Part shown: one piece after another, positions 33,464 through 45,601 of the stretch
Layout of the letters: every line of letters begins with the position of its first letter
How positions within the stretch are numbered: position 1 is the first letter of the stretch
Origin: Flavobacterium cheongpyeongense
GTDB taxonomy: Bacteria > Bacteroidota > Bacteroidia > Flavobacteriales > Flavobacteriaceae
Direction: 5' to 3'
Length of the DNA stretch: 64,000 nucleotides
NCBI RefSeq assembly: GCF_003202435.1
Contig: NZ_QJHK01000005.1
Span: forward strand, 186,001 to 250,000
The notes under the pieces: generated by a model
What the model was told of the DNA's origin: nothing
Databases searched by the model: none
Seen by the model: only the letters and a program-made list of their open reading frames with translations
Position numbers and translations under genes: made by a program

Positions 33464-33600
33464 GCCTGACGTTCTTCACTACCGCAGATTTGGGACTAAA
33501 TTAACCTCATTTTTCGGATTTACCACCCGAGATAGTGAACAGACGAAGAAATCATCACTAATACAAAACCAATTACCCAAATACGTTGTAGCTGTTTGCA
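33464..33600 (-). repeat. attC-like palindrome A
   Basis: Minus-strand ends are TGCAAAC (33600-33594, weak core) and GTCAGGC (33470-33464, one base from GTTAGGC). Inside: CTACAACG, ATTTGGG and CCCAAAT near the ends, as in the other copies. It closes the array at the low-coordinate end. Confidence 0.6.
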
Positions 33601-33606
33601 GTAGTA

Positions 33607-34071
33607 TTATTTCCATTCTTTAATTAATTTTCCTTTTGAATATTTTTGAGCTTTTGAAGAAAATCCTTTTTGAATAGTTTCATCATTGTAATTTTCGACA
33701 TCATTTAGGGATTCTGTTTTTAGAAATTTTATAATTCCAATAATTCTATTTTCTTTTGGTTCATAAAAGAGCATATAAAAATTATTTTCAGTAGCTAAAT
33801 TTAAAATTCCAATATTTTCAGATTTAACTTTAGAAATATTATTAACACAACTTTTAGAATCTAAAATTTCATTTTCTGAAAGTTTTTTATTTTCTTCTGC
33901 AATTTCTAATCTTATTGTATAAATATCCAGTACGTGTTCATAAGGCATAATTATTCCTGATGAATAAATACAATCTGAATCTTTTGTTATATTTAGTAAT
34001 TCAGGAACATATGCATTTTCTGTGTTTAGTTTGCAAAGCTCTATAAAGTCCTCAAAAGTTGGTTTACTCAT
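33607..34071 (-). CDS. Cassette gene, unknown protein (154 aa)
   Basis: 154 residues, soluble, acidic, no signal or membrane segment, no known family recognised. Two cysteine sites (ELCKLN, DSDCIY) are seen. The stop lies 6 bp before palindrome A. Compact fit between two palindromes supports a real cassette gene. Function unknown. Confidence 0.6.
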   Translation of the reverse strand: MSKPTFEDFIELCKLNTENAYVPELLNITKDSDCIYSSGIIMPYEHVLDIYTIRLEIAEENKKLSENEILDSKSCVNNISKVKSENIGILNLATENNFYMLFYEPKENRIIGIIKFLKTESLNDVENYNDETIQKGFSSKAQKYSKGKLIKEWK

Positions 34072-34100
34072 TTACAAATGAATTGTTGATTCTGCGTGGT

Positions 34101-34237
34101 CATTCTAACTAAAGTCATGGTAATCAAAGGGTTTAGGTTCTAAATTAAGATTTATTTTTCGGTTATCACTAAACTGCCAAATACAAAACCAACTTTCCAT
34201 TAAGCCAATTACCCAAATCCGTTGTAGCTGTTGGCGG
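34101..34237 (-). repeat. attC-like palindrome B
   Basis: Minus-strand ends are CCGCCAAC (34237-34230) and GTTAGAA (34109-34103). The left half has CTACAACGG and ATTTGGGTAATTGGC; the right half is the most degenerate of the set, so folding may be impaired. Confidence 0.55.
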
Positions 34238-34247
34238 ATAGTGGCTT

Positions 34248-34703
34248 TTATTCCATTGCTTCTCTAATTTGAGTTTCCAAATCTTCTAAATTCTCAAACT
34301 TTTCAAAGACTAAATCTTTATTATTCTTCTTTAATTCTTCTATTAATTCTAGAATAAGTTCATAACCTTCAATTTCATAGCCAAACATATTTTGGTCAAA
34401 ATTTGTTCCAACTAATAATTCATCATTGTCAATTCCGATACACCAATTCTCAATAAATTCGGCTAGGTTTATTTCTGTTGTTTCGTATACTTCCCAACCA
34501 TTTTTAGCACATGATTTTGCTAAAGCTTTTTCTGACCAAAAACATATTATTCCAATCGGTTCTCCGTCTTCATCTTCCAAATCATTTGAACTTGAAGTTG
34601 CAAATCCATCTTCATTTTCTAATCCGTAAACCAAACTTGTTTCACAAACTTTTTTAACGAATTTCTCATGTTTCAATTTTACGTCAATATGATTTTTAAA
34701 CAT
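34248..34703 (-). CDS. DUF2750 family protein (cassette gene)
   Basis: 151 residues. The DUF2750 pattern is clear: KFVKKVCETSLVYGLENEDG, ICFWSEKALAKSCAKNGWEVYETTEINLAEFIENW, and NDELLVGTNFDQN. Small, acidic, soluble. Function unknown. It starts 59 bp after the unit boundary GTTGTCGG and ends 10 bp before CCGCCAAC, so the cassette is compact. Confidence 0.85.
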   Translation of the reverse strand: MFKNHIDVKLKHEKFVKKVCETSLVYGLENEDGFATSSSNDLEDEDGEPIGIICFWSEKALAKSCAKNGWEVYETTEINLAEFIENWCIGIDNDELLVGTNFDQNMFGYEIEGYELILELIEELKKNNKDLVFEKFENLEDLETQIREAME

Positions 34704-34761
34704 CTTCGTTTCTATTAGATTTCTGTTGAATTTCTGTTTTCGTTGTTTTCTGTTGCTATTT

Positions 34762-34917
34762 CCGACAACACCTTGATAATCAGTAGTTTTTTAGTTAAAT
34801 TAAGCCCATTCTTCGGATTTACCACCCGAGCGAATCGAACAGACGAAGTAAATCATCCCAAATACAAACCATTTTTCCATTAAGCGAAATGCCCAAATCC
34901 GTTGTAGCTGCTACCGG
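34762..34917 (-). repeat. attC-like palindrome C
   Basis: Minus-strand ends CCGGTAGC (34917-34910, AAC changed to AGC) and GTTGTCGG (34769-34762). It includes the insert ACCCGAGCGAA...CAGACGAAGTAAAT also seen in palindromes I and K, so it belongs to the longer subtype. Confidence 0.6.
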
Positions 34918-35375
34918 TAGTTTTTTATCTTCTCAAACAATTCTGCTACATATATTTCAACAAATTTAGAATTCAGAGTCCTGCTAAAATATTTTCCGTA
35001 TTCATCATTAGTTTTTCCAAATATTCCACTCATTTTTCCACTAAAGCAAAACCTTTCTTTTCCGTTTAGCGTTTTTCCATTTTCAAAGTCAAATTCATTT
35101 GTACGCCAAAAATCTTCAGGCATTGAACTATTTTCTCGGGTTGAAATTTTATAAGATGACTTATCAAATTTTAAATAAGCAACACTTAATTTGGTTTTAC
35201 TTTTTTCAAAATAACTTTCAGTTACAATTTCGCCGTATTCGTAAACGGAAACATGAACTTCTATACTATCAATTTTGACATGTCCTGATTTTAACAACTT
35301 AGATTTTGCAGGGTGATTCTGTCCAAATGAACATAAGCCATTAAATAGTAAAATAAGTAATACTAAGTTTTTCAT
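34911..35375 (-). CDS. Cassette gene, small secreted protein
   Basis: 154 residues with a signal peptide (MKNLVLLILLFNGLCSFGQ). The mature part is beta-rich, with repeated VKIDSIEVHVSVYEYGE and YIAELFEKI-like segments; no family recognised. Its stop codon TAG lies inside the downstream core site (CCGGTAGC), which shows how tightly the cassette is packed. Probably periplasmic; function unknown. Confidence 0.65.
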   Translation of the reverse strand: MKNLVLLILLFNGLCSFGQNHPAKSKLLKSGHVKIDSIEVHVSVYEYGEIVTESYFEKSKTKLSVAYLKFDKSSYKISTRENSSMPEDFWRTNEFDFENGKTLNGKERFCFSGKMSGIFGKTNDEYGKYFSRTLNSKFVEIYVAELFEKIKNYR

Positions 35376-35416
35376 TTTATTGATTCTGTTTCAAGTCCGT
35401 TCGTCCGCGAAAATTA

Positions 35417-35546
35417 CCGGTAACGTTCCGCGGCTTCGCGACAGTTGCGAAGCCAGCGAACTGATTATTTTCTGTTAAAGATAAAAGTTTTTCGTGAACG
35501 CGTAAAAATAAAAACCAGCAATTGCGCGAAACCGCTGTTATGCGCA
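35417..35546 (-). repeat. attC-like palindrome D (divergent interior)
   Basis: Minus-strand ends TGCGCATAAC (35546-35537) and GTTACCGG (35424-35417). The interior differs from palindromes F-L: GCGGTTTCGCG pairs with CGCGAAGCCGC, and CAATTG with CAACTG. Same architecture with unrelated arm sequence, as in real attC sites. Confidence 0.65.
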
Positions 35547-35550
35547 GATT

Positions 35551-36195
35551 TTATTTTGTTTTCACGATTAACATTCCATCTCTTCCTCGGTAACCATAAG
35601 TTTTAGGACATTCTTCTTTCGACACAAATCCTATGTAAAGAATATTAAATTGATAAAGATACTCTTTAAGCTTGTCTTTTTCATATTCTGTGAGATCGTA
35701 GCCATTGAGACTAAGTATTGGATTTGCTCCTAATTTATTTTCTTTTACGTAATTGTCAATCACTTCAGCTATTTTCTCCTTTGTGTAAATAGAACTTGGC
35801 GTAATATTCAATTTGTTGTCATTAATCATTTTCCAAAATTTTGGAGACCAATTGGAATTTAGTTCCCAAACGTCTCTTTTTTTATCTAAAATATTTTCAA
35901 TAATGTTTTTTTTGGTTTTTTGCTCAATAAGAATTTTAGATAAAAAATGTAAATCGATTGGCCATTTTGACGCTTCCATTTTTGCGATTAACTGTCTATT
36001 GTAATCTTTCAGATTCGCTAATTTTTCTTCCTCTATGTACAAAAGGAAATTGTATAAATTAAGCGATTCCATTTTCTGAATACTATCATTTATAACAATT
36101 TCTAGTTTTTCTTTCGTCAGTTTTTTTATTCCATTAAAACTATTGTCTTGCGAAAAAACTAATAAAGGGAAAAGTAAAAGAAAAGTCCATTTCAT
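35551..36195 (-). CDS. Cassette gene, secreted protein ending in a plug-like motif
   Basis: 214 residues from MKWTFLLLFPLLVFSQ, a signal peptide. The frame runs back to 36285, but that part is the palindrome sequence itself, so 36195 is preferred. The C-terminus GYRGRDGMLIVKTK resembles the end of TonB-receptor plug domains (YGSRGANGVILITTK), and a charged helical region precedes it. No known family recognised. Boundaries are perfect: start GTTATGCGCA, end TGCGCATAAC. Confidence 0.65.
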   Translation of the reverse strand: MKWTFLLLFPLLVFSQDNSFNGIKKLTKEKLEIVINDSIQKMESLNLYNFLLYIEEEKLANLKDYNRQLIAKMEASKWPIDLHFLSKILIEQKTKKNIIENILDKKRDVWELNSNWSPKFWKMINDNKLNITPSSIYTKEKIAEVIDNYVKENKLGANPILSLNGYDLTEYEKDKLKEYLYQFNILYIGFVSKEECPKTYGYRGRDGMLIVKTK

Positions 36196-36220
36196 AACTA
36201 AAGCTCTATTGTGGGAAATT

Positions 36221-36358
36221 TGCGCATAACGTCTTGGCGCTTGGCGAGGTTGGGGAATAAAGATGCGAGATTTTCGGTTGAACACAAATTTCCCAAATAC
36301 AAAACCATCTTTAAATTCAGCCTAAAACCTCAATCTCGCCAAACGGCTGTTAGCGGTA
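36221..36358 (-). repeat. attC-like palindrome E
   Basis: Minus-strand ends TACCGCTAAC (36358-36349) and GTTATGCGCA (36230-36221). Inner arms GTTTGGCGAG and CTCGCCAAGC pair with each other. The arms differ from those of D and F. Confidence 0.7.
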
Positions 36359-36366
36359 GTGCTTTT

Positions 36367-37044
36367 TTAATTGCAATATTTTTTTATCATTTTGTAAGCT
36401 TCTTCTAAGCCTAATTCGCCTGACTTGCTTAAATCAAGACATCCGCTATCTTTTTGATTTAATTTAATTTTGGCAATTCCCATGTTAAAATAAGCAATAT
36501 CAATTTCATATTCAGATACTGCTAAATTGTAATCATTTATTGCACTAGTTAAATCGTTAAGCATAAATTTTGCATTTCCTCTGTTTAATTGAATTTTCGC
36601 TTTTTCGCTTTTATAGTAATCATTAGGATCTTCTTCGATTAGTTTATCTATTTCAATTATTGCCATGTCATAGTCTTTTATTGCTCCTCTATAATCGTTT
36701 AATTTAAATTTAGAGATGCCACGATTATTATATGAGTAACTATTAGCATTGATTTTAATAGAAATACTATAATCTAATATTGCACCTCGAAAATCATCAA
36801 GTGCGAATTTTGCATCTGCTCTGTTGGCGTAAATATATTCCTCGTTCGGAGAAATTTCTATTGCTTTGTTAAATGCTAATATTGCACCACTAAAATCTCC
36901 AAATGAATATTTGTTCGTTCCTTCATTATAATAACTATTATTAAAACTCATATCCACACCTAAAAGATCTTTTTCTTGTTTTATAGTTTGTGCGAATGAG
37001 TTAATAGTAAATAAAAATAGAAGTGTTTTTTTTATAATTTTCAT
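36367..37044 (-). CDS. Secreted TPR-repeat protein (cassette gene)
   Basis: 225 residues with a signal peptide (MKIIKKTLLFLFTINSFAQ). About five TPR-like repeats of ~34 residues follow, each with a D(F/Y)RGAI or DLTSAI segment (for example NRADAKFALDDFRGAILDYS). Two Cys occur in the C-terminal DSGCLDLSKSGELG...KKYC segment. TPR proteins serve as protein-binding scaffolds; the partner is unknown. Cassette ends match 10 of 10. Confidence 0.8.
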   Translation of the reverse strand: MKIIKKTLLFLFTINSFAQTIKQEKDLLGVDMSFNNSYYNEGTNKYSFGDFSGAILAFNKAIEISPNEEYIYANRADAKFALDDFRGAILDYSISIKINANSYSYNNRGISKFKLNDYRGAIKDYDMAIIEIDKLIEEDPNDYYKSEKAKIQLNRGNAKFMLNDLTSAINDYNLAVSEYEIDIAYFNMGIAKIKLNQKDSGCLDLSKSGELGLEEAYKMIKKYCN

Positions 37045-37081
37045 AAATCACTTTATTGAATTCTCCGTCATTTTTCAACAT

Positions 37082-37220
37082 TACCGCTAACGTTCTCGCG
37101 CTACAAGCAGTTTGGGACTAAATTAAGCCCTATTTTCGGATTTGCCAAATCATCCCAAATACAAAACCATTTTTCCATTAAGCCAAATGCCCAAATCCGT
37201 TGTAGTGGCTGTTAGGCGAT
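37082..37220 (-). repeat. attC-like palindrome F
   Basis: Minus-strand ends ATCGCCTAAC (37220-37211, core GCCTAAC fits RYYYAAC exactly) and GTTAGCGGTA (37091-37082). Inside, CTACAACG / GCTTGTAGCG and ATTTGGG / CCCAAACT pair. The two flanks do not match each other, because each matches the far end of its own cassette. Confidence 0.75.
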
Positions 37221-38294
37221 GTACTTTATTTGTTGTATGTATATGGTATCCGTATTTTCTGTTATTAATTTAGGGAATGAATCATTTGAAGTTATTAATT
37301 CTATGGCTTTAATATATGGATGTCCAAATATATTCTCAGTACCAAAAGAGATTGGACAAATTAGGCTATTTTCTAAAAGAAAATTTTGATTAAAATCTTT
37401 TTTTGAACCGTGATGTGGAATCTGAACAGTACCAACTAACTTCCATTTCTTTTTAAAAACTTCTTTTATATTCACGATATTAAAGTTGGTATCTCCAGTA
37501 AATATACACGCAACTTTGTCATTTATAAACCAATGGTTGAGAAATATTGGACATTCAAGTAAAATATGACTTGTTACGTTTTCTAAAGGACCAGAATATA
37601 CAATTAATGAATTTTCATTTATATTACCAGATAATTCTTTATATATTTTTCGAATAGTACTTATGTTTTTTAGGCCATAGTTTAGGTCTGATTTTAAGTT
37701 TTCAACATCTATTGTGTTAGCTTTTAGTAAATTAATCAATTCCTCATTGCGTTGAGTATATAAATGATTATATGGAATGTATTCCCAAAATTCATTTATC
37801 AATATTTTTGTTTTACTTTTTAAAGTTGTGATACTATTAGTTTCTAATTCTTTTAAAGTTATACTTGTTTCGTCTTCATCATTTTTAATATCTTCATCAG
37901 GACTGACATAAATAATTTTTGTATTGTCCGAAAAAAATGAATCAGGATTATTAATTAAGCTTGCAACTTCATTAAATCCTATAGAAAGATAAAAGTTATA
38001 TAACAATTGTCTTTCGTCGTCGTGTAATAAAGGTAAGATTACAATGTTTACGGTATTATTTTGTATTAATAAGTGAATTTTATTAATATGGTCTTCATCA
38101 TAATGTGAAATGAATAGTATGTTAATTACTTCATTGTTAAATGAATTTATAATCTTCTTATCCACTTTATTTTTATTTGATTTACTTCCGCAATCATATA
38201 CAATATTAATATTGTTATCGTGTTTTTCTGTGTAGAAGGCACCTTGCCCAATCGGATAAAATGTTCTTATCATTATTTCTGTCATTTTTGTCAT
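37212..38294 (-). CDS. Metallo-beta-lactamase-fold protein (cassette gene)
   Basis: 360 residues. The MBL signature is SHYDEDHIN (HxHxDH-like, first His replaced by a YDEDH form), with TGDTN and PHHGSKKDF further on, as in the ComEC/Rec2 C-terminal domain group. The residues 'FYPIGQGAFY...VYDCGS' open the fold. Likely a nucleic-acid or phosphodiester hydrolase, but the substrate is not shown. The stop TAA lies inside the GCCTAAC core. Starts at 38294; a Met at 38282 is another option. This is the largest cassette gene. Confidence 0.82.
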   Translation of the reverse strand: MTKMTEIMIRTFYPIGQGAFYTEKHDNNINIVYDCGSKSNKNKVDKKIINSFNNEVINILFISHYDEDHINKIHLLIQNNTVNIVILPLLHDDERQLLYNFYLSIGFNEVASLINNPDSFFSDNTKIIYVSPDEDIKNDEDETSITLKELETNSITTLKSKTKILINEFWEYIPYNHLYTQRNEELINLLKANTIDVENLKSDLNYGLKNISTIRKIYKELSGNINENSLIVYSGPLENVTSHILLECPIFLNHWFINDKVACIFTGDTNFNIVNIKEVFKKKWKLVGTVQIPHHGSKKDFNQNFLLENSLICPISFGTENIFGHPYIKAIELITSNDSFPKLITENTDTIYIQQIKYIA

Positions 38295-38296
38295 AT

Positions 38297-38433
38297 ATCG
38301 CCTAACGTTCTCGCGCTACAAGCAGTTTGGGATTAAATAAGCGTTATCTTTCGGATTTGCCAAATCTTCCAAATACAAACCAATATTTAAACTAAGCCAA
38401 ATACCCAAATTGCTTGTAGCGTGTGTTGTATGC
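38297..38433 (-). repeat. attC-like palindrome G
   Basis: Minus-strand ends GCATACAAC (38433-38425) and GTTAGGCGAT (38306-38297). The inner arms CGCTACAAGCAATTTGGG (minus, right side of the plus strand) and CGCTACAAGCAGTTTGGG on the plus left side differ in one base, a near-perfect 18-bp pairing. Confidence 0.75.
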
Positions 38434-38448
38434 TGTGTTTTTTATGTT

Positions 38449-38916
38449 CTAAAATTTGTATTTATCTAATTCTATTGCTTCGTCAAAGTGATTCTTAAAT
38501 TTTTCTGATAATTCTGCATCTTTAAATTTCACAATTGTATATGAACTATCCCAAGCAGTTATTTCAAAAACTGCGTTTTCCACTTGAAATTGGTCATTGT
38601 TCCAAACGTTATCATTTCCTTCAACGTAAGGAAAGTTTTCTTTGTCAAATTTCGGATTTTCAGTTTTTTTTACGGCAGAAATCACACCCCAAATAATTTG
38701 AAGATTTGATTCGATTATTTTTTTGAAATTTTCGGAAGAAAGTATTGAATAATTTTCACGGAAGTCAATAGGGAGTTCTTGTTTTGAAAAGTTTACAACG
38801 TCTAAATCTGACACTAACCAATTAAATTCTGATATGTCTATCCACGACGAATCTAAAAGATTATTTAGATTTGTATGACAATACAATTTCTTAGTGCTTC
38901 TAATTATCCAATTCAA
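38449..38916 (-). CDS. Cassette gene, unknown protein (155 aa)
   Basis: 155 residues, soluble, Trp- and Asn-rich, no signal. Family not recognised; it ends in ELDKYKF. Cassette start GTTGTATGCT (38960 downward) and end AGCATACAAC agree at 10 of 10 bases. Confidence 0.65.
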   Translation of the reverse strand: MNWIIRSTKKLYCHTNLNNLLDSSWIDISEFNWLVSDLDVVNFSKQELPIDFRENYSILSSENFKKIIESNLQIIWGVISAVKKTENPKFDKENFPYVEGNDNVWNNDQFQVENAVFEITAWDSSYTIVKFKDAELSEKFKNHFDEAIELDKYKF

Positions 38917-38951
38917 ATTTTCTCTTTATTAGGTTCTGTTCTTTTAACATA

Positions 38952-38985
38952 GCATACAACTAGCATATAGGTCTGATAAAATCAG
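38952..38985 (-). repeat. Type-3 cassette boundary, copy 1
   Basis: GCATACAAC (38952-38960) is followed by TAGCATATAGGTCTGATAAA. The boundary at 45439 is followed by the similar TCGCACATATGTCTGGCAAA, so a third palindrome family is likely. A short perfect hairpin, AGGTCTGATaaAATCAGACCT-like, lies inside. Confidence 0.45.
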
Positions 38986-39098
38986 ACCTATCACGACTAA
39001 ATTACAGAGATAGTTCTGACTAAAGTCAGATTTTATTTTAACCAAATATAAAAAAAATCACCCTAAATCATCAAAATGACTCTTGATTTATCAGATAT

Positions 39099-39314
39099 TC
39101 AATACTGTACTTTTGCTCTTATGAAAACCGTAAATCTAATAAAAGTCTCCTGACTTTTCCGTAAACGGCTTAAGAATACATGTTGTCGACTCATGAAATT
39201 ACAAAATTCTCTACTCAGACTATGTCTTTCGAAATATCCATTTTCGTCATTATGGTATTCATCAGAAAAAACAATTTCGTCATTATTTACTCCAATATTA
39301 ATGTCAAGTCCCAT
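39099..39314 (-). pseudogene. Truncated cassette gene fused to a 56-bp repeat
   Basis: 71-codon frame. Residues 1-46 (MGLDINIGV...HSLSREFCNFMSRQHV) read as a normal small soluble protein start. The last 25 are encoded by the 56-bp repeat at 39123-39178 and beyond, which recurs at 41638-41693 outside any gene. So the original gene appears cut and its tail replaced. No functional claim is made. Confidence 0.6.
39123..39178. repeat. 56-bp dispersed repeat, copy A
   Basis: It starts GAAAACCGTAAATCTAATAA and ends TTAAGAAT. The copy at 41638-41693 differs at a handful of positions. The core AAAAGTC-nnnn-GACTTTT is a hairpin. It interrupts the truncated gene. Confidence 0.7.
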
Positions 39315-39340
39315 TTTTTATCGTTCAGTTTTTTTAATTA

Positions 39341-39616
39341 CTGCTAATCAGTTTGTCTCAAAACCTCCATTTTTTATTATTTTGAACATAAATATAGCTG
39401 ATTTAAACTACAAAAAAACTTGCTGTAAAACTCAATCCGTTGATTGTTTTGAACGAGTACCGTTTTACTTGTACAAACTAAACCAAAGCGTTTGCAATGT
39501 GGCTTTTTAGATAGTTACTACTTGATAAAACAGATTAAGAATCTTTTTTTATTAGCCCGCATTGCAAACGCTACAATTATCTTTTTAAATATTATGAGGG
39601 ATGGTTATTATGGGCT
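39341..39616 (-). repeat. Type-2 palindromic repeat, copy 3
   Basis: The part 39351-39557 is nearly identical to 40308-40516. It also contains GCGTTTGCAATG and CATTGCAAACGC as an outer inverted pair, and ACGCTACAATTATC near 39579-39592 as in copies 1 and 2. Boundary sequences: AGCCCATAAT (39616-39607, minus) and TGATTAGCAG (39350-39341, minus). Confidence 0.7.
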
Positions 39617-39622
39617 GTTTTT

Positions 39623-40252
39623 TTATTGTTTTTCATTCCACTCTGCTAGATATTTTAGAATTGTTTCCATTTTATTCTTTTCTGGATCTTGATTGTATTT
39701 ATCCAATAGTTCTTTGTCATTTGTTAAAATTTCTGTTATGTTTTTTTCAGAAACTAAAGTTATCTTTTTATTTGACTTTTCCATAATATAAGGAAATCTC
39801 AACATTGCTAATTTCATTGCACTTAATCCTCCACCCAATCCACCAAACATAAAGGGCAATTTATCAATTTCTAATCCATACTCTTTATATTTATTTGGAA
39901 ATGAACCACTAAAAACAAAATATTTTTTAGCGCTTATTACTTTAGCGTACCATTTACTAATTTCTAGTTTAGTACAATTTAAATATAAATTTTCTCCGTC
40001 GGAATACGCTTCAACTACTTTTTTTAATTCACCTCTGTTAGTTGATTTATCTAATGAATTTAATTGATAATCATTTCCGCCATTCATTTTAATTTCACCT
40101 TCGGTTCTTTTTTCTAATTCAACGTTATAATTTGCACTCGGTTTATTTTGAATTATTTCTTCATAATTTAAATAAATTCCTTTTTGATATTTTGTTTGTC
40201 CGTAACTGTTGACACTCAAAAGTATTAATAATGCTATAATTGTATTTCTCAT
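39623..40252 (-). CDS. Cassette gene, secreted protein (DUF6563-like)
   Basis: 209 residues from MRNTIIALLILLSVNSYGQ, a signal peptide. The frame runs back to 40327, into the repeat, so 40252 is used. The mature start YQKGIYLNYEEIIQNKPS resembles secreted DUF6563-type proteins, as I recall them; GGLGGGLSAMKLAMLRFPYI is a hydrophobic glycine-rich segment. It sits between two nearly identical ~200-bp repeats. Cassette ends match at 9 of 10 bases. Confidence 0.7.
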   Translation of the reverse strand: MRNTIIALLILLSVNSYGQTKYQKGIYLNYEEIIQNKPSANYNVELEKRTEGEIKMNGGNDYQLNSLDKSTNRGELKKVVEAYSDGENLYLNCTKLEISKWYAKVISAKKYFVFSGSFPNKYKEYGLEIDKLPFMFGGLGGGLSAMKLAMLRFPYIMEKSNKKITLVSEKNITEILTNDKELLDKYNQDPEKNKMETILKYLAEWNEKQ

Positions 40253-40293
40253 TTTTTTATTACTTGATTTTCTTTCAGTTTGCTGATGCAAAA

Positions 40294-40600
40294 TAGCCCA
40301 TAACATCGTTTGTCTCAAAACCTCCATTTTTTATTATTTTGAACGTAAATATAGCTGATTTAAACTACAAAAAAAACTTGCTGTAAAACTCAATCCGTTG
40401 ATTGTTTTGAACGAGTACCGTTTTACTTGTACAAACTAAACCAAAGCGTTTGCAATGTGTCTTTTTAGAAATGTACTACTTGATAAAACAGATTAAGAAT
40501 CTTTTATTTTGGTAGCCCCATTACAGTGTTGCGGTCTCAGTGGTTCCGTTCAACACGGGTTTCATTGTTCGTGCTGCGCATGCAACTAATCTGTTAGCTA
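40294..40600 (-). repeat. Type-2 palindromic repeat, copy 4 (right arm lost)
   Basis: 40308-40516 repeats 39351-39557 at about 95% identity. After GGTAGCCC the sequence diverges and the CATTGCAAACGC arm of copy 3 is absent, so the hairpin is broken. Boundaries: GTTATGGGCTA (40304-40294, minus) and TAGCTAAC (40600-40593, minus). Confidence 0.65.
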
Positions 40601-41437
40601 TTAGCTATAGTTTTTATTATGTCGTATTCTATATGTTCTTAATATATTCTCTAATTCTCTGTGTGTTACATTCAGAGAGTCAATTTCTATCTTTTCAAAC
40701 TCTTCTTCATCGTAAAAGTAAATCAGGTAGGATTTTGAGGATTTACCGTAACCTTCTTGAACTACTTCCTCAAGTTCTATATTTGACCAGTCTCTAAATT
40801 CAACATTTTTAGTTTGGATTCCTTTCGAGTCAATTATTATTTGTGGTTTGTTGTTAAATGCTTTTCGGTATTGTTTTATTGTGCTGTAAATTCCAATTAC
40901 AGCCATAATTGCTCCCAAAATATATTGTTTTTTTTCCCCTATAGTGAATAAATAAATACCGACTCCAATTATTAAAACTGAAATTCCGAGTTCAAAATAA
41001 ATATACGCTTTTGAAAAGTGAATTTCTATTTTTGGAGGAAGTGAATAATCCTCTCTGTATTCATCTTCTTGCTCAAATTTCTTTTCAAGGTCTTTGAGTT
41101 TTCTTTTATCATCGGTATTTCTAATTTCAGTTTTTTCGAAAATGTTTCCATCATTCCAAATCAGTTTTTCTTGAATTGCTCTTTTCTTTAACTCGTGAAC
41201 ATTTCTAACATTTTCAAAAGCCCAAACTCTCCATTTGGTTATCATAAAACTCCAAATTAACCAAGCTAACACAAATCCAATTAGGAAAGCAATTCCAATT
41301 CCCCAACCAGGAATCAAGTTCTGTTCTGATAAATAAAGAGCTAAAGCTGGACAACCGATTATTGCAATGAATACAGGGACATTTACAATCAAGTGTCCTC
41401 TTTTTATTGCTTTATCAACTGATATTTGTTCTCTCAT
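40601..41437 (-). CDS. Cassette gene, membrane protein (278 aa)
   Basis: 278 residues. Hydrophobic segments at about 17-34, 46-66, 151-167 and 171-188 give four spans; a charged ~75-residue loop lies between the second and third, and the C-terminal ~80 residues (IIIDSKGIQTKN...DWSNIELEEVV) look like a PH-like domain facing the cytoplasm. The stop is directly at TAGCTAAC. Family not recognised. Confidence 0.7.
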   Translation of the reverse strand: MREQISVDKAIKRGHLIVNVPVFIAIIGCPALALYLSEQNLIPGWGIGIAFLIGFVLAWLIWSFMITKWRVWAFENVRNVHELKKRAIQEKLIWNDGNIFEKTEIRNTDDKRKLKDLEKKFEQEDEYREDYSLPPKIEIHFSKAYIYFELGISVLIIGVGIYLFTIGEKKQYILGAIMAVIGIYSTIKQYRKAFNNKPQIIIDSKGIQTKNVEFRDWSNIELEEVVQEGYGKSSKSYLIYFYDEEEFEKIEIDSLNVTHRELENILRTYRIRHNKNYS

Positions 41438-41476
41438 AAAATTTTCGGTTCTGCGGTTTCAAATTACTGCTAATCA

Positions 41477-41546
41477 AGTCACGCAAGGGAATTTCACCCT
41501 TACGTTCTCACGGAACCGTGCTTGAAAGTCTCACTTCATATAGCTC
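41477..41546 (-). mobile_element. Group II intron remnant (domains V and VI)
   Basis: On the minus strand the 34-nt stretch 41546-41513 starts GAGCTATATG and ends CACGGTTC, matching domain V of bacterial group II introns in length, terminal GAGC/GTTC pairing and the ATGAA...CTTTCA middle. Domain VI follows (41509-41477), as ACGTAAGGG...TTCCCTTGCGT, ending in GACT. The next bases, TGATTAGCAG, are the same as an intron-free boundary at 39350-39341. Most of the intron and its reverse transcriptase are gone. Group IIC introns are known to insert at integron attC sites. Confidence 0.7.
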
Positions 41547-41637
41547 TTCATGTTCATAAATCACACTAAATTAATTCAATTTATGAATATCCCGCTGGCA
41601 AAGTCTGAAGACTTTACGTATTTTTTTAAATGTTCTC

Positions 41638-41693
41638 GAAAACCGTAAATCTAATAAAAGTCACCTGACTTTTTCGTGAATGGTTTAAGAATT
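41638..41693. repeat. 56-bp dispersed repeat, copy B
   Basis: Same length and order as 39123-39178, again with a hairpin around AAAAGTC-nnnn-GACTTTT. It lies in the 343-bp gene-free gap 41438-41780, between the intron remnant and the GTTATACGG end of the PNPOx cassette (41701-41715). Confidence 0.7.
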
Positions 41694-41780
41694 CAACACT
41701 GTTATACGGCGTATTTTTAACCATAAAGTTGGTCCCTTATAATCGATTAAGTAAGGCTCAAACTTTTTGTGTTGGTGTTT

Positions 41781-42242
41781 CTATATTCTATAAACTTTTT
41801 TTGCATTTTCAATTTGTTCAATTTCTGTTGTTTCTGGATATAAAATATATTTCGGAGCTATAATCCTTTTAACTTGTGCTATCGTAATTTTGGTTATAGA
41901 TTTAAAAGGAAATTTGCCTTCAGTCATTTTTGATAATATTTTTTCCATTGCTAAAAATTCGGTGTCAGTTTCATCAATGATTTCAGCTTTCCCTTTAATT
42001 TGAAATCCTTTCTGTAACAGAATATCGATAAAACTTATGCATACATTTTCATTAATTTTAATATTACAAACCGTTTGCGGAGAAGCTATATTTGCAATAA
42101 TTACCTTGTCTGTTCCATAATAATTAAAAATTTCTTTTGGCGAAACATTTGGTATGTTTTCTACTGATACTGTTGCGAGCCAACAAAGTACGCTTTTGTC
42201 AATAGATTCCTTAATCTCTTTAGTTAGTTCGATTTTAGCCAC
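41781..42242 (-). CDS. PNPOx-like flavin-binding protein (cassette gene)
   Basis: 153 residues. The split-barrel fold of pyridoxamine 5'-phosphate oxidase-like proteins is suggested by SVLCWLATVSVENIPNVSPKEIF, DKVIIANIASPQTVCNI and NVCISFIDILLQKGFQIKGKA. This group binds FMN; the substrate is unknown. It follows the 42260 gene by 17 bp and both are enclosed by one pair of ends (GTTATGCGG/CCGTATAAC), so they form a two-gene cassette. Confidence 0.82.
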   Translation of the reverse strand: MAKIELTKEIKESIDKSVLCWLATVSVENIPNVSPKEIFNYYGTDKVIIANIASPQTVCNIKINENVCISFIDILLQKGFQIKGKAEIIDETDTEFLAMEKILSKMTEGKFPFKSITKITIAQVKRIIAPKYILYPETTEIEQIENAKKVYRI

Positions 42243-42259
42243 AGTTTTTGTTTATTGGG

Positions 42260-42604
42260 TTAGTTAATTTCAATGTATTCAGATTTGCCTTTTTCGTTAC
42301 CGTTTGTTAGCCATTCCCAATCTAAACTCAATTTTATTTTCCCGCTATCTGTTAAAGAAATTTTAGCTATTGCTTTTCCCGCTTTCAATAAATTATCTGT
42401 TGTCAAACATTGATATAACATATTTAATTCATCTCCTTTCAAGTCAGCAATAATTTTTCCATATTTTATTGTTCCACCAAAATAGTCAGCGGTTACAAGA
42501 TTGCTGTCTTGTCTATATTCAAAAACAGTTTCCGAGTTTACTTGTCCACTTTCGGAGTTTTCAATTAGTACAAATTTCTTGTTGTTAAAGTCGTAGTTAT
42601 TCAT
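42260..42604 (-). CDS. Small protein of the 'N-acetylglutamate synthase' annotation group
   Basis: 114 residues. The pattern KFVLIENSESGQVNSETVFEYRQDSNLVTADYFGGTIKYG, then GKIKLSLDWEWL, matches short Bacteroidota proteins often labelled N-acetylglutamate synthase; the label is doubtful because no acetyltransferase core is present. Beta-rich, soluble. First gene of the two-gene cassette. Confidence 0.65.
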   Translation of the reverse strand: MNNYDFNNKKFVLIENSESGQVNSETVFEYRQDSNLVTADYFGGTIKYGKIIADLKGDELNMLYQCLTTDNLLKAGKAIAKISLTDSGKIKLSLDWEWLTNGNEKGKSEYIEIN

Positions 42605-42644
42605 TGTGTCTATTTTCTGTAGGGTTTCGGTTTTTCGGAATATA

Positions 42645-42806
42645 CCGCATAACGTCTTTGCAATACAGCGGGTTTGGGACTAAATTAAGACCTGTTTTCG
42701 GATTTGCCACCCGAGCGAAGCGAACAGACGAAGTAAATCGTCCCAAATACAGAACCAATTTCAAATTAAGCCTAATGCCCAAATTGCTTGTAGCGTGTGT
42801 TAGCGG
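42645..42806 (-). repeat. attC-like palindrome I
   Basis: Minus-strand ends CCGCTAAC (42806-42799) and GTTATGCGG (42653-42645). It holds the ACCCGAGCGAAGCGAACAG insert of the longer subtype. Palindrome K is almost the same sequence. Confidence 0.72.
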
Positions 42807-42844
42807 TTTGGGCTTGTTTCGGGCTGGTTTTTGTCCTGTCGTTG

Positions 42845-43291
42845 TTACTTTGAATAAACGTTTTTATCATGAAGTTCCATCCATTTGGTTGGGTCTGCAA
42901 TGTCTATCCACCCAAATTTACGATATAGCTCGTGTGCGTCTCCTGTGAGTAAAATCCAACGTCTTAAACCTTGTAGACTCGGATAGTTCATAACCGTTTC
43001 CATTAACCATTTAGAAAGCCCCAATCCTCTGAATTCTTCTAAAATATATACGTCGCCCAAATAGGCAATCGTTGAAAAATCGGTAATGATTCTTGCAAGG
43101 CCAATTTGTTTTTCGTCTTGGTAAACACCAAAGCAGAATGAATTTTCAATAGCAGTTTGCACCTTGTCTTTCGGAATATTTATGCACCAATACGCTCTGG
43201 TTGATAAAAATTCGTGAATGGCGTCAAGGTCTAATTTTACCTTGTCGGTTGAAATGCAAAACTCGCCTTTGTATATGTTTATGTCTGTCAT
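42845..43291 (-). CDS. GNAT acetyltransferase, copy 1
   Basis: 148 residues. The GNAT acetyl-CoA motif is GDVYILEEFRGLGLSKWLME (R/QxxGxG/A type: RGLGLS), with LVDAIHEFLS-type N-terminal helices and LTGDAHELYRKFGW at the end. The substrate is unknown. The protein at 44269 is identical except one residue (F to Y at EEFRGLG). The cassette ends are GTTAGTGG and CCGCTAAC (7 of 8). Confidence 0.9.
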   Translation of the reverse strand: MTDINIYKGEFCISTDKVKLDLDAIHEFLSTRAYWCINIPKDKVQTAIENSFCFGVYQDEKQIGLARIITDFSTIAYLGDVYILEEFRGLGLSKWLMETVMNYPSLQGLRRWILLTGDAHELYRKFGWIDIADPTKWMELHDKNVYSK

Positions 43292-43326
43292 AGTTTCTGT
43301 TTACTTTCCGTGTCGATTTAGCCTGA

Positions 43327-43460
43327 CCACTAACGTCCCGCCACTACAGCGGGTTTGGGACTAAATTAAGCCCTATTTTCGGATTTGCCAAATCTTCCAA
43401 ATACAAGACCAATTTTCCATTAAGCCGAATGTCCAAATCCGTTGTAGCTGTTAGGTGAGG
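43327..43460 (-). repeat. attC-like palindrome J
   Basis: Minus-strand ends CTCACCTAAC (core ACCTAAC fits RYYYAAC exactly, 43459-43450) and GTTAGTGG (43334-43327). Same shorter subtype as F and L. Confidence 0.75.
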
Positions 43461-43464
43461 TTCC

Positions 43465-43758
43465 TTATAGTCTACTTTTTAAATCCATTATTCCATGAAG
43501 AATTCTTGCGATTTCTATTTCGTTCTTTGATATAATTGAGTAGAAGATAATATGTTCACCTGATTTAAAACCTAATATTCCTTTCGTAACTATAGTATAG
43601 TTTCTACCAAGTTCTGGATTATTTGCTAAATCATCACATGCTGCCATAAGTAAATCATAATACTTTTCAGCTTGCATTTCTGACCAAGTTTCGATTGTAT
43701 AATCCCAAATTTCAGTTAAGTCATCAACAGCTTTATTGGTAAAATAATATTTAGCCAT
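43465..43758 (-). CDS. parE: ParE-family toxin (cassette gene)
   Basis: 97 residues. The RelE/ParE fold is seen as YYFTNKAVDDLTEIWDYTIETWSEMQAEKYYDLL, then NPELGRNYTIV and EHIIFYSIISKNEIEIARILHG. ParE poisons DNA gyrase. It overlaps the ParD-like gene by 8 bp, and the pair fills one cassette (ends match 13 of 15), a toxin-antitoxin cassette as in large chromosomal integrons, where such pairs stabilise the array. Confidence 0.9.
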   Translation of the reverse strand: MAKYYFTNKAVDDLTEIWDYTIETWSEMQAEKYYDLLMAACDDLANNPELGRNYTIVTKGILGFKSGEHIIFYSIISKNEIEIARILHGIMDLKSRL

Positions 43759-44002
43759 TTGATGTTTTTCTTGCTTTTAAAACGTTGAGATGTTTTTTAG
43801 CATCAAAATCTACTGCACGCCCACTTTCAACTCCATCATTGATTGCTTTTCTTAAAGCTACAATTTTATTTTCCTCATCTTCTAAAAGACGAAGACCGGC
43901 TCTGATAACTTCACTTGCATTATTAAATCTTCCATCATTTACACTGTGTTCGATAAAATTTTCGAAATGATTACCAAGCGATATAGAAGTATTTCGTCCC
44001 AT
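43751..44002 (-). CDS. parD: ParD-family antitoxin (cassette gene)
   Basis: 83 residues from MGRNTSISLGNHFENFIEHSV. The frame reaches back to 44044, but the canonical ParD start is MxxNTSISLG, so 44002 is chosen. A ribbon-helix-helix N-terminus (NTSISLGNHFENFI...NASEVIRAGLRLLE) binds DNA; the C-terminal tail binds the toxin. Overlaps parE by 8 bp and lies upstream of it, in the usual antitoxin-first order. Confidence 0.88.
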   Translation of the reverse strand: MGRNTSISLGNHFENFIEHSVNDGRFNNASEVIRAGLRLLEDEENKIVALRKAINDGVESGRAVDFDAKKHLNVLKARKTSNG

Positions 44003-44067
44003 AATTTTTTTAGCTAAGTTACCAAAAAATGGTAACTTCTTCAATTATTCCTTATTTTTTTTGGAAT

Positions 44068-44230
44068 CTCACATAACGTTCTGTTACTATAGCGGGTTTG
44101 AGACTAAATTAAGGCCAGTTTTCGGTTTTGCCACCCGAGCGAAGCGAACAGACGAAGTAAATCGTCCCAAATACAGAACCAATTTCAAATTAAGCCTAAT
44201 GCCCAAATTGCTTGTAGCGTGTGTTAGGGG
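44068..44230 (-). repeat. attC-like palindrome K
   Basis: Minus-strand ends CCCCTAAC (44230-44223) and GTTATGTGAG (44077-44068). It is a near copy of palindrome I, including the ACCCGAGCGAAGCGAACAG insert, with a handful of changes. Confidence 0.72.
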
Positions 44231-44268
44231 TTTGGGCTTGTTTCGGGCTGGTTTTTGTCCTGTCGTTG

Positions 44269-44715
44269 TTACTTTGAATAAACGTTTTTATCATGAAGTT
44301 CCATCCATTTGGTTGGGTCTGCAATGTCTATCCACCCAAATTTACGATATAGCTCGTGTGCGTCTCCTGTGAGTAAAATCCAACGTCTTAAACCTTGTAG
44401 ACTCGGATAGTTCATAACCGTTTCCATTAACCATTTAGAAAGCCCCAATCCTCTGTATTCTTCTAAAATATATACGTCGCCCAAATAGGCAATCGTTGAA
44501 AAATCGGTAATGATTCTTGCAAGGCCAATTTGTTTTTCGTCTTGGTAAACACCAAAGCAGAATGAATTTTCAATAGCAGTTTGCACCTTGTCTTTCGGAA
44601 TATTTATGCACCAATACGCTCTGGTTGATAAAAATTCGTGAATGGCGTCAAGGTCTAATTTTACCTTGTCGGTTGAAATGCAAAACTCGCCTTTGTATAT
44701 GTTTATGTCTGTCAT
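44269..44715 (-). CDS. GNAT acetyltransferase, copy 2
   Basis: 148 residues, the same protein as that at 42845-43291 except EEYRGLG in place of EEFRGLG. The two ~800-bp blocks 42656-43460 and 44080-44870, each with a palindrome on both sides of the gene, are nearly identical, so the whole cassette was duplicated. The ParDE cassette lies between them. Confidence 0.9.
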   Translation of the reverse strand: MTDINIYKGEFCISTDKVKLDLDAIHEFLSTRAYWCINIPKDKVQTAIENSFCFGVYQDEKQIGLARIITDFSTIAYLGDVYILEEYRGLGLSKWLMETVMNYPSLQGLRRWILLTGDAHELYRKFGWIDIADPTKWMELHDKNVYSK

Positions 44716-44750
44716 AGTTTCTGTTTACTTTCCGTGTCGATTTAGCCTGA

Positions 44751-44885
44751 CCACTAACGTCCCGCCACTACCAGCGGGTTTGGGACTAAATTAAGCCCTA
44801 TTTTCGGATTTGCCAAATCTTCCAAATACAAGACCAATTTTCCATTAAGCCGAATGCAAAGCTTGCTTTTAGCTGTTGTAGGTAG
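44751..44885 (-). repeat. attC-like palindrome L
   Basis: Minus-strand ends TACCTACAAC (44884-44875) and GTTAGTGG (44758-44751). Shorter subtype, nearly the same interior as J, but the CCGAATG segment is followed by a different right arm (AAGCTTGCTTTTAGC). Confidence 0.7.
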
Positions 44886-44890
44886 TTTTT

Positions 44891-45391
44891 TTAGCTTTCC
44901 ATTGTCATATAGTCCAATTGCCCGTTCTCATCAGTTTTTATTACAACTAAATAGTCGGTCAATTCACGTCCAATTGTGTAATCAAATATTGCAAAATTAT
45001 CTTCATCGTGAGGATAAAGCCCAACTCTTACTAATTTCAATTTTGTCAAAAGTTGCTGTTCAGGTTCTGTTGATATGTCGTCAAAGTTTATGAGTATTGA
45101 AATTTCGTCTTTACTAATTTCTTTAAGATGATGTTCTAAGTAAAATTTTACAGTGTCACCATCTTCGTCACTGTAATCATCATGAATATACGACTTGTTT
45201 AGCTTGTCAAATTTATCAATATTCTCAATAAAGTTTTTTACTTTATCCATTGTTAACGTTTCAATAGTTGTGTCTTCAAAATTTAGGTCTACCTGAATTT
45301 CGCTTTCGTTGCATTCAATATCAACATCATAATAGTCTTCCAAATTTTCTGTTGGTAATTTTCCGAAATGTGGTAATGTATATTCTGTCAT
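44891..45391 (-). CDS. DUF2004 family protein (cassette gene)
   Basis: 166 residues, acidic and soluble. LPHFGKLPTENLEDYYDVDIECNESEIQVDLNFED matches DUF2004, as I recall the family; DFDDISTEPEQQLLTKL and VGLYPHDEDNFAIFDYTIG follow. Function unknown. First gene of the array; start GTTGTCGGTA (45448-45439), end TACCTACAAC (9 of 10). Confidence 0.8.
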   Translation of the reverse strand: MTEYTLPHFGKLPTENLEDYYDVDIECNESEIQVDLNFEDTTIETLTMDKVKNFIENIDKFDKLNKSYIHDDYSDEDGDTVKFYLEHHLKEISKDEISILINFDDISTEPEQQLLTKLKLVRVGLYPHDEDNFAIFDYTIGRELTDYLVVIKTDENGQLDYMTMES

Positions 45392-45438
45392 TTTTAAATG
45401 TTTATTTCTTTTTTATTTGGTGTCATTTGCACTAAACT

Positions 45439-45475
45439 TACCGACAACTCGCACATATGTCTGGCAAATGCAAGC
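45439..45475 (-). repeat. Type-3 cassette boundary, copy 2 (array right end)
   Basis: TACCGACAAC (45439-45448) followed by TCGCACATATGTCTGGCAAA, related to 38961-38981. No integrase or attI-like context is recognisable in the following ~250 bp. Confidence 0.45.
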
Positions 45476-45601
45476 ATTAGTAGTTTCAAATATATTTGTT
45501 TATTCTTACAAATCATCAAAGTTTACTTTTATTTGTATGATTACTACTAACAAACATCTTCTTATAAAAACCACTGCCCTAGCCCAGATGGAAACGGCAT
45601 C

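Follow-up and report, generated by a model that had tools for sequence, protein, structure and literature searches.

Two tandem cassette arrays in Flavobacterium cheongpyeongense probably belong to an integron-like system with a non-IntI tyrosine recombinase

Within the 64,000-nucleotide stretch analysed here (positions 186,001 to 250,000 of contig NZ_QJHK01000005.1, referred to as the window), Flavobacterium cheongpyeongense carries a series of small gene units, U1 to U14, all on the minus strand and associated with imperfect palindromes similar to the attC sites of integrons. The initial annotation described them as the array of a cluster of attC sites lacking an integron integrase (CALIN). 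Our analysis strongly suggests that they form two tandem arrays from which the integrase gene has been lost, and that these belong to an integron-like system. Its cassettes are likely inserted and excised at G|TT by a tyrosine recombinase different from the integron integrase IntI. We read the array as two segments, U1 to U7 from position 45448 and U8 to U14 from 38960, and not as one plain CALIN, as an integrase-gene stub and an attI-like site are found together at two places.

Remnant platforms precede both cassette segments

On the minus strand, a platform heads each segment. It combines the last codons of a gene for a 347-amino-acid tyrosine recombinase with a promoter-like sequence and with an attI-like site that runs up to and includes the GTT of the first cassette. 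In platform 1, the gene stub (45506..45535, ending ...TTTGATGATTTGTAA), recognised by alignment with the 3' ends of 20 recombinase genes, is overlapped by the sequence TTTG-N-TATATTTG (45487..45520), a candidate Pc promoter found by motif match, and is followed by a shortened attI-like site (45449..45486), which in an alignment of 22 platforms ends with ...TATGTGCGA before G45448|TT. In platform 2, the stub was placed at 39061..39089 by local alignment, and the aligned attI-like site with its promoter-like TATATTTG occupies 38961..39059 and ends with TATATGCTAGTT before the cassette at G38960. The local alignment scores to the platforms of the 20 relatives were 81 for platform 1 (45535-45449) and 113 for platform 2 (39089-38961), compared to 49 and 56 for the best of 200 mononucleotide shuffles each. 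An AGTT is invariant in all 22 aligned platforms (20 loci and the two window remnants), and the sequences diverge after it. The distance from the recombinase stop codon to the GTT is 95-102 nt in 18 of the 20 loci; the two remaining readings (62 and 75) end at an earlier AGTT, yet align with the other platforms. As judged from these alignments, a predicted attI-like site is present between the integrase gene and the first cassette, as in integrons. Furthermore, the motif TTTG-N16-24-TAnnTT[TA]G is found in 20/22 platforms but in only 0.4% of mononucleotide shuffles, and the strict form TAnnTTTG in 14/22. We take TTTG / TAnnTTTG to be the Bacteroidota-type promoter consensus, and the promoter-like sequence by the integrase stop codon likely expresses the first cassettes.

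The attI-like site of platform 2 is nearly identical to the attI of another array of this genome, which is located on the same contig after a 5'-truncated recombinase gene with 82% identity over residues 178-347. Upstream of this truncated copy, a degenerate ACTAATC-type repeat (L076:6500-6815) replaces the 5' half of the gene.

The recombinase heads cassette arrays in relatives

In relatives, the recombinase gene is found just upstream of arrays and is co-directional with the cassettes. Eleven of the first 20 loci were chosen with the gene already seen near a site, and nine came from the match list without a known nearby site; among these nine, a site lies downstream in six (that of L111 scoring only 33 bits) and the contig ends within 230 nt in three. 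All 73 site matches in the first 20 loci are on the strand of the recombinase. A second set of 20 recombinase loci, of which 17 came from genomes of one or two contigs and six have a broken gene (the sites of G150 had been listed previously), has downstream sites on the recombinase's strand in 19 cases (L131 by a weak, distant match only), with 0/110 site matches on the opposite strand.

Cassette ends are complementary to each other

The initial annotation had claimed that the units possess cassette-specific complementary ends, and this is borne out in the window. Over the seven bases beyond GTT, the start of a unit and its own end agree at 77/91 positions in 13 units anchored by eye, compared to a mean of 42.1 (sd 4.9) for permuted pairings, none of 200,000 of which reached this value. 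After removal of two uncertainly anchored units and one duplicate GNAT unit, the agreement is 62/70, versus 33 for permuted pairings. The weakest matches are those of U14 (3/7) and of U2, U4, U5 and U13 (5/7 each). The two halves of a single resident palindrome, which stem from different cassettes, agree at only 35/84 positions; the complementarity is therefore not that of one repeat, as had also been noted. The palindromes belong to one sequence family at 11 places, from which our site model R1 was built and which it in turn matches. Those located from about 41.7 to 39.35 kb differ in appearance, and an intron-like stretch is contained in one of them.

To describe these sites across genomes, 256 profile matches from 46 of 51 sources were used, of which 241 were full length and 225 had the expected GTT. 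These yielded 181 cassettes in 36 sources; the F. cheongpyeongense genome itself contributed 61 cassettes. Own ends agree at 9/10 positions or more in 154/181 cassettes; among mismatched pairs, 3.2% reach this level. Leaving out 19 cassettes, we examined the 162 with an anchoring of at least 8/10 position by position: the fractions of matches at positions 1 to 10 are 1.00, 1.00, 1.00,.99,.99,.96,.98,.98,.95 and.72; the fraction falls to.01 at position 11 and is.90,.84,.83 and.75 at positions 12-15. The start base at position 11 is an A in 162/162 cassettes, is paired in one, and has C as its partner in 125. The arms formed by a cassette's own ends are thus complementary over approximately 15 nt around an unpaired A, and the A.C mismatch of the top strand corresponds to a T.G wobble on the bottom strand. 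The same anatomy was obtained with position 11 left unconstrained at 80 loci of named genomes, some of which duplicate records of our G loci: downstream of the recombinase, exact pairs have A at this position in 78/89 cases and positions 12-15 pair at 70-85%, versus 12/37 and 16-33% for upstream pairs. When own ends were joined in silico, the bottom strand was more stable than the top strand in 152/160 cases. The L-arm helix is 91.7% paired in 150 sites, with 274 double-change cells versus 53 in shuffled and at most 46 in slid alignments. We conclude from sequence comparison that these are imperfect palindromic, attC-like sites with paired L and R arms of non-canonical length, and the integron logic proposed initially (GTT junctions, complementary ends, attC-like palindromes, a Bacteroidota host) is supported across genomes.

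Cassettes appear to move as single units

Two species share a cassette with 99.8% identity over 605 nt, both sides of which diverge right outside GTT, and another instance shows one cassette duplicated in tandem with exact ends. By this comparative evidence, cassettes appear to be mobile as single units, and the break of identity next to GTT suggests G|TT as the exact crossover. As had been suggested, we compared relatives for single units with clean junctions, using the chromosomal site beside a GH43 gene in nine of them. Read by eye, the same remnant platform is present in G060, G066, G248, G185 and G162, each time with a different first cassette (the site matches in G248 are weak only), and no recombinase match was found at this locus in these five relatives at E 1e-3. 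In G108, G183, G079 and G008, no site was found in about 11 kb at the GH43 locus. U1 sits later in the array of G060, and U3 in that of G066, and homology starts at 45448 and 44077, respectively, the predicted GTT starts. As the integrase is gone in all six species while the first cassettes differ, the simplest reading is that cassettes were probably inserted in trans at this locus; separate losses could also account for the pattern.

The recombinase lacks the IntI-specific domain

The IntI model TIGR02249 gave no match over its cut-off in any of 298 genus genomes, and the intI gene that was to be sought elsewhere in the F. cheongpyeongense genome was not recovered: all 12 matches were partial and below the cut-off, and the truncated recombinase gave the best of them. 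As the lost integrase is a non-IntI tyrosine recombinase, a search for intI only would miss it. In the genus, many open-frame proteins of approximately 350-380 amino acids match all but the middle of the IntI model, and three whole recombinases score 206-219 bits at a cut-off of 265. The recombinase has 347-349 amino acids at all first 20 loci. Between the KDR and HxLRH motifs, 56 such proteins have 58-59 residues, compared to 100 in nine Bacteroidota IntI proteins (nine of 20 fetched loci, the others being missed by the open-frame rule) and 66 and 64 in XerC and XerD of the same genome. Likewise, alignment to IntI4 skips chain residues 177-238 of the latter versus 20 residues of the query. 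By sequence, this recombinase is not an IntI with the I2 domain that characterises canonical integrons, and we therefore do not class the system as a canonical integron, although it behaves as one at the level of sequence. Residues R204, K229, K232, H294, R297, H320 and Y329, presumably those of the catalytic site, are invariant in 25/25 recombinases.

In a quick tree (70 rows, two partial rows dropped), IntI proteins form one clade with a Shimodaira-Hasegawa-like approximate likelihood ratio of 100, and the tree supports a position of the recombinase outside this clade; the deeper branches give no support for a branching order, and several rows are long. The divergent Flavobacterium recombinases L132-L134 share an open branch with both IntI and the long recombinases, a placement that may reflect long-branch attraction. 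The structure predicted for the recombinase (mean predicted local distance difference test score 82.6, predicted template-modelling (TM) score 0.51) contains an added N-terminal alpha/beta domain of approximately 56 residues, and the best solved structural matches are XerA and IntI4, with TM-scores of 0.41-0.56. Recombinases of 575-586 amino acids with the same family core are also present in the genus (L083, L084, L086, L090 and L093).

Distribution in Flavobacterium and other Bacteroidota

Sites were detected in 243/299 genus genomes, and the F. cheongpyeongense genome contains at least 92 site-model matches spread over many contigs, as counted from 150 scored candidates of 5,769. Relatives of the recombinase are present in Pedobacter, Pelobium, Kaistella, Hufsiella, Frigoriflavimonas and metagenome-assembled genomes titled as several orders. 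At 15 of 50 loci not titled as Flavobacterium (some titles of metagenome-assembled genomes may be wrong), cassette pairs are located downstream of the recombinase, and in 14 of these 15 the distance from the gene to a cassette start is 87-118 nt; many other contigs end too soon. The same anatomy is seen in Pedobacter, Pelobium and other Bacteroidota. In a family-wide search, related recombinases were found in 84/299 genomes at E 1e-65, two of them from Flavobacterium. At eight non-Flavobacterium loci, exact cassette-end pairs occur on the strand of the recombinase in five (1, 1, 7, 2 and 1 pairs, of which the single ones may be chance) and are absent in three.

Discussion

We propose that an excised cassette circle would join its two complementary ends into one long hairpin, of which the bottom strand would fold best, with a G.T wobble in place of the A.C mismatch of the top strand. 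This bottom strand would then be recombined with a double-stranded attI, as in integrons, and the recombinase would catalyse both the insertion and the excision of cassettes. The arrays likely represent a separate integron lineage, the integrase of which probably recombines folded sites without an I2 domain. One might speculate further that an I2-less second integron lineage extends through the Bacteroidota, in which an Xer-like recombinase acts on folded single-stranded sites and a long R arm with a fixed unpaired base replaces the I2 helix. If so, cassette capture would not require I2, which would not be universal either, and the lineage may resemble the state before I2 was gained; we regard this wider proposal as having an even chance of being correct.

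Several observations weigh against a folded-site integron headed by this recombinase. The alignment used for the L-arm covariation was fitted to a hand-drawn structure. The advantage of the bottom over the top strand is 4.4 kcal/mol for own-joined ends, 2.3 for resident and 2.1 for swapped sites, and as resident and swapped sites are also bottom-biased, part of the strand bias is due to composition. The folding check suggested initially gave weak evidence, with the free energy of resident palindromes reaching z <= -2 on the bottom strand in 3/11 (versus dinucleotide shuffles), and RNAalifold returned no pairs for the first alignment, in part due to misaligned R arms. No intact recombinase copy is found in the F. 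cheongpyeongense genome, only residues 178-347 beside the second array. Among 298 genomes, recombinase (whole or partial) at E 1e-80 and sites were found together in 118 and neither in 47, leaving 124 of 242 site-bearing genomes without a recombinase relative and nine with a recombinase and no site; with the threshold at E 1e-65, by which divergent full-length members (for example that of G073) are also counted, these numbers are 132, 44, 110 and 12. No site was found at L124, a full-length recombinase locus. Among cross-genome cassette matches (at least 88% over at least 250 nt), one of three spans a whole cassette and two are partial, and a partial match to U8 in G162 stops short of the predicted start. 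Finally, another protein could stand in for I2.

An Xer-like enzyme could instead act on double-stranded sites, with the hairpins not being used as folded single strands. The recombinase resembles XerA and is without I2, and a passage of PMC4792948 describes that integron integrases keep a double-strand pathway. The L-arm covariation, the 15-nt unit-specific arms with their fixed mismatch and the bottom-strand bias would have no evident use in such a mechanism, and we consider it rather unlikely. It is very improbable that the window holds an ordinary CALIN, the array of a canonical integron with its IntI lost or located elsewhere; the initial label of CALIN-type is only half right. As in a CALIN, the attC-like sites are clustered without a whole integrase gene in the window; 2961 CALIN are reported in the relevant section of the IntegronFinder 2.0 paper (PMC9024848), and canonical IntI is present in the phylum, over the cut-off in 84/296 genomes. 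Unlike in a CALIN, two 3' stubs each precede an attI-like site, and the remnants heading both segments derive from the other recombinase and not from intI; none of the 298 genus genomes exceeds the IntI cut-off, while the other recombinase was detected at E 1e-80, as a complete or partial copy, in 127. The least credible explanation is that genes are shuffled between dispersed palindromes, either by homologous recombination between repeats or by a transposase of the repetitive extragenic palindrome (REP)/IS200 type: much sequence is common to the sites and the genome holds many copies, but the breaks are located at GTT and the flanks differ otherwise, homologous exchange would not preserve the complementarity of own ends, and no transposase was found among 15 array proteins scanned with Pfam.

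The integron-like system we favour shares with canonical integrons, including the large sedentary ones, the layout of a promoter-like sequence, an attI-like site and cassettes, complementary ends, GTT junctions and imperfect palindromes, as well as small cassettes with toxin-antitoxin and acetyltransferase genes. Unlike in canonical integrons, the integrase is without the IntI-specific domain, lies outside the IntI clade in our tree and is co-directional with the cassettes, and the R arm is approximately 15 nt long with an unpaired A at position 11. The canonical R box has approximately 7 nt. An inverted integrase orientation, as seen here, is known in integrons of Spirochaetota and others, as described in passages of PMC8352920 and PMC9668308. 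Among proteins of solved structure, XerA, XerC and XerD together with IntI4 are closest to the recombinase in both sequence and fold. The phage CTXphi, an integrative mobile element exploiting Xer (IMEX), uses a stem site with XerCD, which have no I2, according to a section of PMC4792948. Unlike in Xer/IMEX systems, the recombinase here is a dedicated one with a predicted N-terminal domain, and it is found at the head of a many-cassette array that has an attI of its own. The inverted integrases of Spirochaetota and others are IntI proteins with the additional domain.

This extra domain serves both to define integron integrases and to search for them. It is considered necessary for cassette capture in parts of PMC9668308 and PMC7790495, and the joint origin of the domain and of folded sites is called a chicken-egg paradox in a passage of PMC4792948. 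If our reading is correct, integrons do not depend on this domain. The question of origin becomes testable with a large natural family of recombinases that are located at the head of cassette arrays but have no I2, and surveys requiring the domain would not recognise these integrases despite the wide occurrence of sites in the genus. By title or abstract start, we found no paper on Flavobacterium integrons in open-access PMC, subscription papers and preprints being outside this search. The term 'flavobact' occurs 0 times in the IntegronFinder 2.0 paper (PMC9024848), in the relevant part of which Salinibacter ruber is the only member of Bacteroidetes proper named as carrying a complete integron, and neither 'Bacteroid' nor 'flavobac' appears in PMC8352920 or PMC7370490.

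Cassette contents and further features of the window

All units lie on the minus strand. U1 (44758..45447) codes for a 166-amino-acid protein with a weak DUF2262 match, followed by attC A1, and has a 90% identical copy in G060. U2 (44077..44757, attC A2; identified by end match and Pfam scan) and its near-duplicate U4 (42653..43333, attC A4; end match and sequence comparison) each code for a GNAT acetyltransferase. Between them, U3 (43334..44076, attC A3) carries a ParD/ParE toxin-antitoxin pair and is 91% identical in G066 from 44077 to 43445. Own-end matches also delimit U5 (41468..42652), coding for a 114-amino-acid protein and a PNPOx-family protein and ending in an interrupted palindrome; U7 (39351..40304), a DUF6563 cassette with start GTTATGGGC and end GCCCATAAT; U8 (38306..38959, attC A8), coding for a 155-amino-acid protein with a weak DUF2691 match; U9 (37091..38305, attC A9), coding for a metallo-beta-lactamase-fold protein; U10 (36230..37090, attC A10), for a TPR protein; U11 (35424..36229, attC A11), for a 244-amino-acid protein; U12 (34769..35423, attC A12), for a 154-amino-acid protein; and U13 (34109..34768, attC A13), for a DUF2750 protein. 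U14 (33464..34108), with a 154-amino-acid protein and the last attC, A14, has a weak own-end match. U6 (40305..41467), coding for a 278-amino-acid protein, was delimited by sequence reading; its ends are not clearly complementary, and it was outside the 13-unit test.

The U9 protein (37212-38294) gave partial matches to the defence models LmuA and PDC-M48B in PADLOC, in which the 10 array proteins analysed had no other match. U7 and U6 end in a second type of palindromic repeat of approximately 200 bp (39351-39550 and 40308-40508), the copies of which are 96-99% identical. Read by eye, a similar palindrome closes the ParDE cassette in G066, so that one gene may be associated with different types of site in the two species. 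The palindrome of U5 contains a remnant resembling domain V of a group II intron (41473..41548, minus strand; Rfam RF00029, 31.3 bits at a gathering score of 40). Some group II introns target attC sites; no reverse transcriptase was found among the scanned array proteins. The Rfam scan matched no attC family and returned Flavo-1 plus sub-threshold matches to the group II intron and mir-155 only. The Flavo-1 RNA (RF01705, 45577-45652, plus strand) is located just upstream of platform 1, and Flavo-1 also occurs within approximately 200 nt upstream of the recombinase gene in three of 11 other loci (L098, L102 and L104), a link that could be chance.

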